Part shown: piece after piece, positions 51,267-54,473 of the stretch
Position numbering within the stretch: the first letter of the stretch is position 1
How the letters are laid out: each line of letters begins with the position of its first letter
Source of the DNA: a bacterium
GTDB taxonomy: Bacteria; Ratteibacteria; UBA8468; B48-G9; JAFGKM01
Direction: 5' to 3'
Assembly (NCBI GenBank): GCA_026414725.1
Contig: JAOAIL010000008.1
Span: 1-60,543 of the forward strand
Length of the DNA: 60,543 nucleotides
Notes under the pieces: generated by a model
Told to the model about the DNA's origin: nothing
What the model saw: the letters and a program-made list of their open reading frames with translations, nothing else
Database searches by the model: none
Position numbers and translations under genes: made by a program

Positions 51267-52141
51267 ACATAGAAGAGTTAACAAAGCAAAGAAGAGTTGT
51301 GATAACAGATGGAAGTATGGGAACTTATCTTGAAATCCTCGGATACAAAGGAAAAACCCCAGAACTCGCCGTTATTGAAAACCCTGACCTTATAAGAAAA
51401 ATCCATATAGAGTATATTGAAGCAGGGGCACAGATTATACTTACAAATACTTTTGGTGCTAATGGATTGCGACTTAGCAAAAAGGGTATGTATGGAAAGA
51501 TAACGGATATAAATTCAAGGGCAGTAGAAATTGCTGTTGACGCAAAACAAGGAAAAGATACTATCATCGCTGGAGATATAGGACCAACGGGAGAACTCCT
51601 TGAACCCTACGGAAATCTTATAACTGAAGAAGCGCGTGATGTCTTTGTACAGCAGGCAACGATATTAACTGAAGCAGGTGTGGATTTTATCCTCCTTGAG
51701 ACATTCCAGGACCTTGAAGAATTAAAAGTTGCTTTCAGTTCTATTAGAGAAAATCTTAATTGTTTTGTGCTTCCTTCTATAACCTTAACATCAGGAGATA
51801 ATCCTAAAACACTTATGGGACAGGGACTGGAAGACATAGTGAAATTTGCTGAAAGAGAAAAAATTGGAGTTCTTGGAATAAATTGTGGAATTTCAAGTAA
51901 AGAGATGGTAAAAGTAGTTAAAAAATTAAAAGATATCACAGATATCCCTCTATGGATAAAACCCAACGCAGGACAACCATATCTTGATAAGGAGAAAGTT
52001 ATCTATCCTGAATGTGTTGAAGAGTTTGTCAGCAATTGTCTCCAGATGGTAGAAGACGGGGTAAGATTTATAGGTGGATGTTGCGGAACCACGCCACAGT
52101 ACATAAAACTCTTAAAGGCAGGAATAGATGAAAATAGTTGA
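51263..52141 (+). CDS. Homocysteine S-methyltransferase domain protein (MetH-N type)
   Basis: The 292-residue protein is the homocysteine-binding TIM barrel: VVITDGSMGTYLEILGYKGK at the start, ILTNTFGANGLRL, LLETFQDLEELKVA, GINCGIS and the C-terminal GGCCGTTPQYI carrying the two zinc Cys (with GINCGIS providing the third). It lacks the folate and cobalamin modules of MetH. Probably demethylates a methyl donor onto homocysteine; folate/B12 partners would be encoded elsewhere. Confidence 0.92.
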   Translation: MNIEELTKQRRVVITDGSMGTYLEILGYKGKTPELAVIENPDLIRKIHIEYIEAGAQIILTNTFGANGLRLSKKGMYGKITDINSRAVEIAVDAKQGKDTIIAGDIGPTGELLEPYGNLITEEARDVFVQQATILTEAGVDFILLETFQDLEELKVAFSSIRENLNCFVLPSITLTSGDNPKTLMGQGLEDIVKFAEREKIGVLGINCGISSKEMVKVVKKLKDITDIPLWIKPNAGQPYLDKEKVIYPECVEEFVSNCLQMVEDGVRFIGGCCGTTPQYIKLLKAGIDENS

Positions 52142-53951
52142 AGTGGTTTTTGATATTCCTGTTGATAAACCATTTTCTTATCTTGCAGGCAAATTTTCAG
52201 AAAATATATGCAGAGGTGTACGGGTTTGTGCTCCCTTTGGGAAACAAAAAAAAGTAGGGCTGGTTATTTCTGTCAAAGATATTACAGATGCAGATATAAA
52301 CACCTATAAAAATATTCTTTCTGTGTATGATACTCTTCCTCTTTTGAATGATGCCCTTTTCACTCTATCTGATTTTATCTCAAAGAAATACTTTTCCTCT
52401 TTAGGACAGACACTCTTTGCTATGATAGGAGGCCTTCCACTGAAATATAAACATTCCATCATATCATTAACTAATAAAGAGGACTCTATCTGTCAGAGTT
52501 ATAGCAAGAAATATCTTCTCTTCCCGAAAGATGTAAAGAGGAAAGAAATATATATAAAGATTATCCAATCAGTACAGAATGGTTCAATACTCCTGTTATT
52601 CCCTGAAGTATCTCTCGCTGAAGAATATTACAGGGAAATCTTTAACACATACAGAAACAGAGTAGTTTTATTCCATTCTGAATTGAAAAAGGATGCAAAG
52701 ATAGCCATATGGCTGAAAATGTTAACAGAAAAGAATCTCATTGTTATCGGAACAAGGATTGCTGTATTTTCTCCTGTGGCAGATATAAAAACAATCATAA
52801 TAGACAGGGGAAATGACCATGCTTATAATGAACAACAAACCCCTAAATACAACACTTTTGAAGTTGCGGAGTTCAGATGCAAGTTTTACCGAATACCTTT
52901 TATTATAGGAGAAACAGCCCTCTCTATAAGAGAATATCTTGATATCCATAAACATAACTATTCAAGTGAGGTCCATAATAAAGAGAAATTACCGTCTATA
53001 TATACTGTATTTATAAGCAGAAAAACAGTTGATAAAGACATTTCATTTTTTGCAACAGATACAGTTTCAATCTTAGAGGAGACACTACTTAAAAAAGGAA
53101 AGGTTGCTGTTATACATAACAGTAAAGGTACTTCCAGAATACTGAGATGTGAAAAATGTGAATATAAGTTTCCATGTGATACCTGTAGTTATCCTACGGT
53201 TCTATCAGAAGACGGGAAAAATCTACTGTGCAGATTCTGTAAAACAACCATACCTTTTGAAAAAAAGTGCCCTGCCTGTAAAAGTAAAAGAGTGGAGGAA
53301 AGGGTATATGGTATTGAAAAGATATTCAGGGTATTAAAAACATTTTATCCTGATTTTAAAATTACAAAATTTACAAGTGGAATGAATACCTATGAGGACT
53401 CTGATATTGTTATTGGTACAATTGCCATTAAGAAAATTTTTATGAGATATAGATTTTCTCTTGTAATTATAATAAATGGAGAGAGTTTCCTTAATACCCC
53501 TGACTATAACAGCGAAGAGAAGTTTTTAATTACTATCAATGAGATAAAAGGGCTTATAGATAATCCTGAATGTAAAATTCTTATACAGACAAGAAGCCCA
53601 AACCTTGAAATATACAGAGCTCTGGTTGAGAATAACCCGGAAATATTTTACAGTAAAGAAATATCTGTAAGAAAACAACTTCTTTATCCGCCATTTTCAG
53701 AGATGATAAAAATAGAGATAAAAGGTACCAGAAAAGATGTTTTTGAACGCAAGAAAAGGTTGGTGGAGGAGTATATAAAGGAAAAAGGATATGAACTATT
53801 TTATTCTGGCCCTTCTTTCCCACCCGTAAAAAAAGGAAAGGGTATCTGGAAATATCTTTTAAGATTCAGAGATAACTTTGATAGAGAAGAGATAAAAAAG
53901 TTGGTCTCTGAATTAGATGCAACAGTAGAAGTCAATCCTGAACAGATTTAA
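52128..53951 (+). CDS. priA: PriA-like primosomal protein with degenerate helicase motifs
   Basis: The 607-residue protein keeps the PriA N-terminal 3'BD (VVFDIPVDKPFSY, GVRVCAPFGKQKKVGLVI) and the zinc-binding domain with eight Cys (C341, C344, C350, C353, C368, C371, C381, C384). Walker A should be GVTGSGKT but reads LFPKDVKRKEIY (131-142), and DEEH reads DRGN (226-229). The GRAGR motif is absent after LNTPDYNSEEK (455-465). ATP hydrolysis is therefore unlikely. About 130 residues shorter than typical. Last gene of the deacetylase operon, overlapping it by 14 nt. Confidence 0.88.
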   Translation: MKIVEVVFDIPVDKPFSYLAGKFSENICRGVRVCAPFGKQKKVGLVISVKDITDADINTYKNILSVYDTLPLLNDALFTLSDFISKKYFSSLGQTLFAMIGGLPLKYKHSIISLTNKEDSICQSYSKKYLLFPKDVKRKEIYIKIIQSVQNGSILLLFPEVSLAEEYYREIFNTYRNRVVLFHSELKKDAKIAIWLKMLTEKNLIVIGTRIAVFSPVADIKTIIIDRGNDHAYNEQQTPKYNTFEVAEFRCKFYRIPFIIGETALSIREYLDIHKHNYSSEVHNKEKLPSIYTVFISRKTVDKDISFFATDTVSILEETLLKKGKVAVIHNSKGTSRILRCEKCEYKFPCDTCSYPTVLSEDGKNLLCRFCKTTIPFEKKCPACKSKRVEERVYGIEKIFRVLKTFYPDFKITKFTSGMNTYEDSDIVIGTIAIKKIFMRYRFSLVIIINGESFLNTPDYNSEEKFLITINEIKGLIDNPECKILIQTRSPNLEIYRALVENNPEIFYSKEISVRKQLLYPPFSEMIKIEIKGTRKDVFERKKRLVEEYIKEKGYELFYSGPSFPPVKKGKGIWKYLLRFRDNFDREEIKKLVSELDATVEVNPEQI

Positions 53952-54226: not shown

Positions 54227-54300
54227 GGGCGGTTAGCTCAGCTGGATAGAGTGCTACGTTGACATCGTAGAGGTCGCAGGTTCAAGTCCTGCACCGCCCA
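54227..54300 (+). tRNA. tRNA-Val (anticodon GAC)
   Basis: A complete cloverleaf: acceptor 54227-54233/54293-54299, D stem 54236-54239/54249-54252, anticodon stem 54254-54258/54266-54270 with loop TTGACAT (anticodon 54261-54263), T stem 54276-54280/54288-54292 with TTCAAGT, discriminator A at 54300. CCA is not encoded. Its 3' part is repeated at 54439-54473. Confidence 0.97.
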
Positions 54301-54438: not shown

Positions 54439-54473
54439 AGAGGTCGCAGGTTCAAGTCCTGCACCGCCCACTA
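54439..54473 (+). repeat. 35-bp direct repeat, copy 2 (partial tRNA-Val; attR-like)
   Basis: Identical to 54269-54303, including the T arm and acceptor end, but the 5' half of a tRNA is absent upstream of it. It is not a functional tRNA gene. Confidence 0.85.

Follow-up and report, generated by a model that had tools for sequence, protein, structure and literature searches.

PriA is treated as a helicase that normally marks a broken fork and unwinds DNA, with Deinococcus as the exception usually cited. A study from 2015 (PMC4504706) proved biochemically that the PriA of Deinococcus-Thermus is a pseudohelicase: the Deinococcus radiodurans protein is devoid of both ATPase and helicase activity, has a Kd of about 108 nM for forks, and interacts directly with DnaB (PMC4504706). 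In 2005, actinobacterial PriA had already been called 'smaller and very divergent' (PMC1193525). Here, we analyzed a priA gene located in a bacterial DNA stretch of 60,543 nucleotides (contig JAOAIL010000008.1), hereafter the window. According to our analysis, its product is a genuine, vertically inherited PriA of its order which, judging from the sequence, has turned into a pseudohelicase. The preliminary description of this DNA had proposed a second, independent instance of a PriA without helicase function. Independence stands, with the loss placed within the phylum, but the ordinal does not: motor-less PriA proteins are already known as a kind from Deinococcus and the actinobacteria, further cases turned up in families outside the phylum, and the window PriA is one of many.

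The assignment of the open reading frame to PriA relies on its score of 254 bits to TIGR00595, against a curated cutoff of 230 that some other members of the order miss. Against a canonical PriA model, the protein reaches 280 bits; it also contains the PriA 3'-DNA-binding domain (Pfam PF17764, PriA_3primeBD; E value, 2e-20), and matches PriA structures in the PDB over residues 2 to 100 and about 136 to 594 (Table 1). The gene and a homocysteine S-methyltransferase gene overlap by 14 bases. Upstream of priA lie genes for a protein kinase and a histone-deacetylase-like protein, and downstream a tRNA followed by a rarA/mgsA gene. The same neighborhood of protein genes surrounds the homolog L006, whose PriA is 71% identical. 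The tRNA spans positions 54227 to 54300, and its 3' end is exactly repeated at 54440 to 54473 (GAGGTCGCAGGTTCAAGTCCTGCACCGCCCACTA), about 170 bases later; this resembles the trace left by an integrated element or by a partial tRNA duplication. A second intact priA, which according to the preliminary description would have made the window gene a paralog, was not found in the genome, which is 96.4% complete; the remaining matches are RecG, Mfd-like, and UvrB-like SF2 helicases.

Table 1. Position of the priA gene in the window and of the regions of its product
Feature	Coordinates	Strand	Basis or remark
priA ORF (predicted pseudohelicase), 607 aa, ATG start	52128..53951	+	Sole priA in the genome
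3'-DNA-binding domain, residues 1-106	52128..52445	+	PF17764, alignment
Short linker replacing the E. coli winged-helix domain and Q-motif region	52446..52517	+	Alignment
Former motif I / Walker A, LFPKDVKRKEIY, residues 131-142	52518..52553	+	Alignment
Former motif II, DEEH to DRGN, residues 226-229	52803..52814	+	Alignment
Zinc (cysteine-rich) domain, C341-C384	53148..53279	+	Alignment
Former motif VI / arginine finger; QVAGRAGR site reads ITINEIKGLI	53529..53558	+	Alignment
C-terminal domain, residues 521-607, starts with PP	53688..53948	+	PP invariant across all PriA compared

Alignment to E. coli PriA and to other intact PriA proteins bears out the losses initially reported for the Walker A, DEEH, and GRAGR sites. 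The Walker A stretch GVTGSGKTEIY is aligned to FPKDVKRKEIY, where GxTGSGKT has no match; motif III, GSATPS, is replaced by GETALS (the site reads IGETALS), and of motif V, GTQMxxKG, the GT alone remains. In motif VI, QVAGRAGR corresponds to INEIKGLI, which contains no match to GRAGR, and the two deleted residues are the last two of that signature (E. coli G586 and R587). The features reported as retained are likewise present, namely, the GTR at residues 208 to 210 and all eight zinc-binding cysteines (residues 341, 344, 350, 353, 368, 371, 381, and 384) of the domain that interrupts the two lobes of PriA. Seven catalytic residues were scored; since all of them are present in 56 of 56 intact PriA proteins of the comparison set and the pseudo-PriA proteins outside the phylum retain zero to two, with the outlier L074 at four, the loss of the motifs is far from a chance outcome.

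The 3'-end pocket is kept in the alignment, with F16, Y18, G38 (corresponding to E. coli G37), and K61, while E. coli D17 is replaced by Ser, as in five of the six intact PriA proteins of the same class. We take F16, Y18, G37, K61, and D17 (E. coli numbering) to form this pocket from their role in E. coli. The missing winged helix had escaped the preliminary description: the linker has about 20 residues, compared with 113 in E. coli and about 43 in intact PriA proteins of the same class. Since the latter also lack this domain or have it reduced, its absence is not, as far as the alignments indicate, diagnostic of activity. An AlphaFold model built from a two-row alignment had a pLDDT of 36 and was discarded, and, from the alignment, the fold of the window PriA is predicted to be retained.

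When we inspected the phylum, represented by 35 genomes of one class, motifs I, II, III, and VI were found to be lost in all 23 readable PriA proteins of the order and intact in all six readable PriA proteins from the two other families of the class. The frames of the relatives were read from stop to stop, and a few residues preceding the true start codon may enter the alignments. The relatives in the order thus share the losses of the window PriA, and an assembly error garbling its motifs, considered in the preliminary description, fails as an explanation because the 23 proteins, from three families, come from separately assembled genomes. None of the 23 harbors the Walker A signature GxTGSGKT, and the P-loop glycines are all gone. 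The position of the P-loop Lys (R138 in the window PriA) is occupied by K or R in every member, the neighboring positions vary freely, and the Walker B Asp is kept in 21 and the catalytic Glu in 11 of the 23; among the residues of the ATP site, only the Lys position and the Walker B Asp are under evident constraint. G152, S153, E317, K325, E463, and K575 are conserved in the order but not generally found in intact PriA proteins, and R625, P631, and P632 (E. coli numbering) are kept as in all PriA proteins.

Retention of the zinc domain, proposed for this PriA, applies to the window protein but not to the whole order: in genus g9 (L039 in G027 and L040 in G020, which were assembled separately) the complete zinc domain is missing, in frame, along with the helicase motifs, and L035 and L037 have each lost one zinc cysteine. 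PriA is single in every near-complete genome of the order where it was read. It seemed to be missing from G002, G003, G005, G013, and G025, for which we do not claim a real loss; G003 contains a contig-edge PriA fragment (residues 1 to 130), and the other four are 54 to 86% complete. In G033, a genome of the same class, contigs C245 and C61 yielded a candidate second PriA-like match (862-aa frame) beside an intact priA, attributable to a paralog or to contamination.

That these genes are decaying pseudogenes or assembly artifacts, for which only the missing motifs speak, has next to no probability. The frames extend for about 510 to 630 amino acids in 23 genomes without internal stops, the synteny with L006 is conserved, and the dN/dS ratios are well under 1. 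For the whole gene, they amount to 0.14 to 0.22 in seven pairs within the order, on the basis of which we deem the gene functional, versus 0.10 to 0.18 in two intact pairs, and they stay below 0.35 in every domain in all pairs that could be scored. In the lobes, the values are 0.13 to 0.33 for the dead proteins (scorable pairs) versus 0.04 to 0.16 for the intact ones; constraint is thus weaker in the dead lobes, which are nevertheless clearly under purifying selection. Regarding its origin, a careful tree recovered the pseudo-PriA proteins of the order as one clade (100/100) with a long stem of 1.38, adjoining the intact PriA of the same class, and both were grouped with a support of 99.7 among 51 intact PriA proteins from across bacteria when the motif columns were removed and other pseudo-PriA proteins were left out. 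The order could instead have taken over an already dead PriA horizontally from a different pseudo-PriA lineage, and a quick tree containing all other pseudo-PriA proteins indeed drew the clade to long-branched ones; yet this placement is a search artifact, since the larger tree with the clade held next to the intact PriA of its own class is better by 28 log-likelihood units. Moreover, intact PriA of the same class is the best match outside the order for 17 of the 23 members, and no pseudo-PriA from beyond the phylum was found to be closer than these intact proteins. Given this likelihood gain, the best matches, and the 99.7 group, the loss of the motor most likely arose inside this phylum, and we regard the transfer as most improbable.

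As for function, the lobes might still bind or hydrolyze nucleotide at a noncanonical site; its remains would be the Walker B Asp and the K or R found where the P-loop Lys normally sits. The constancy of position 138 among freely variable neighbors and the 21 retained Asp residues favor this explanation, but none of the P-loop glycines remains, Thr231 and the arginine finger have likewise been lost, and in E. coli the K230R substitution alone abolishes the ATPase activity of PriA (cited in PMC4504706). A structural or DNA-phosphate role for the basic residue would be simpler, and we hold a residual nucleotide site to be very doubtful. Alternatively, the gene could have been repurposed outside replication restart, for instance as a DNA-end or SSB-associated regulator, with another protein restarting replication. 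The fast stem branch of the clade (1.38 to 1.46 changes per site), the loss of the zinc domain in g9, and the order-specific residues are in its favor; against it, the protein is still the sole PriA wherever a near-complete genome was read, it keeps the 3'-end pocket and R625, P631, and P632, and no other restart initiator was identified in a search covering PriA, DnaB, DciA, and RecG. Such a change of role is, in our opinion, rather unlikely.

The reading of the window PriA as a fork-recognition scaffold, as initially suggested, is the best one since the protein is the sole PriA, appears dead by its motifs, is under purifying selection, and retains its DNA-binding and zinc parts. We accordingly judge it probable that this PriA is an ATP-independent scaffold for replisome reloading which has lost its motor. 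For the window PriA, we infer the absence of ATPase activity, the binding of forks, and the recruitment of DnaB. In the E. coli protein, the zinc domain is needed for contacts with primosome proteins. An ATP-independent platform is in line with the presence of DnaB, DciA, and RecG in the window genome and the lack of a second PriA there. It also agrees with the assays on Deinococcus PriA and with the ability of E. coli PriA mutants deficient in ATPase to assemble primosomes (cited in PMC4504706). DnaB was detected in 32 and DciA in 31 of the 35 genomes; most of the order also encodes a full RecG. Using its 3'-DNA-binding, zinc, and C-terminal domains, the scaffold would bind a repaired or stalled fork at the junction and the free 3' end, with the two dead RecA-like lobes possibly serving as a rigid platform for DNA and proteins. 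DnaB could then be recruited, together with DciA, without ATP being spent, and unwinding of the lagging arm might be left to RecG or another helicase or be dispensable. The contacts of such a scaffold must differ to some extent between members of the order, because the sister genus g9 has deleted the zinc domain.

To place this loss among other bacteria, we surveyed 292 genomes, about 276 of them outside the phylum and almost all with a completeness of 90% or more, and re-read the low scorers. At least 24 genomes outside the phylum, from at least 17 families, encode a motif-less PriA, as counted among the re-read low-scoring genomes, and 22 of these 24 proteins retain all eight zinc cysteines. 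L086 matches PriA over the zinc region only. L080, from the very small genome G216 (about 0.6 Mb), is motif-less with four of the eight zinc cysteines replaced. L074 (G095) is a partial case: it keeps a P-loop-like GGGK and the DEE but has lost motif VI, with the arginine finger, and the zinc domain; possibly, it represents an early stage of motor loss. In the tree, L074 adjoins the intact L091 (99), and L061 and L066 are placed apart from it, near other intact PriA proteins (93). Independent losses of the motor are therefore likely, and their number, as read from the trees, is a lower bound. Most unrelated dead PriA proteins (L065, L067, L068, L071, L075, L078, L080, L081, and others) feature Arg or Lys at the P-loop Lys position, often after Glu; a basic residue at this old site may hint at a shared structural role. 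DciA was considered as a predictor of motor loss and rejected, being found in 19 of the 24 pseudo-PriA genomes outside the phylum and in 239 of the 292 overall, with no link.

The recurrence of motor loss is the interesting part of these observations. With several likely independent origins and about 9% of a diversity-spread sample affected, we lean toward PriA having ATP-independent fork recognition and helicase loading as its core selected function, with the PriA of g9 as a minimal restart platform. If true, these would be the most conserved functions for which PriA is selected. Judging from the survey, the loss is frequent enough to raise the question of why PriA has a motor and what takes its place. 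An order whose PriA motor is wholly erased, with intact PriA proteins of the same class as its sister group, offers a clean natural experiment on PriA with and without ATPase in one phylum.

Compared with canonical PriA (E. coli and Klebsiella pneumoniae; PDB 6dcr, 8fak, and 4nl4), the window PriA shares the domain order, consisting of the 3'-DNA-binding domain, the RecA-like lobes, and the zinc and C-terminal domains, but lacks the catalytic motifs and the winged-helix domain. D. radiodurans PriA resembles it in having defective motifs I and II while keeping the DNA-binding parts; there, however, the Walker A Lys is changed to Arg and motifs I and II are described as poor matches (PMC4504706), whereas in the window PriA, which belongs to another phylum, erasure extends to the entire P-loop as well as to motifs II, III, and VI, and the winged helix is missing. 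Actinobacterial PriA (NCBIfam NF011451 to NF011455, PRK14873) is similar in lacking the P-loop, DEEH, and GRAGR and retaining eight cysteines, as seen in L084, which is clearly of the actinobacterial type (NF011452, 1,152 bits). The window PriA scores at most 91.5 bits to these models, whose cutoffs are at least 812, and, unlike actinobacterial PriA, it groups with the intact PriA proteins of its own class.
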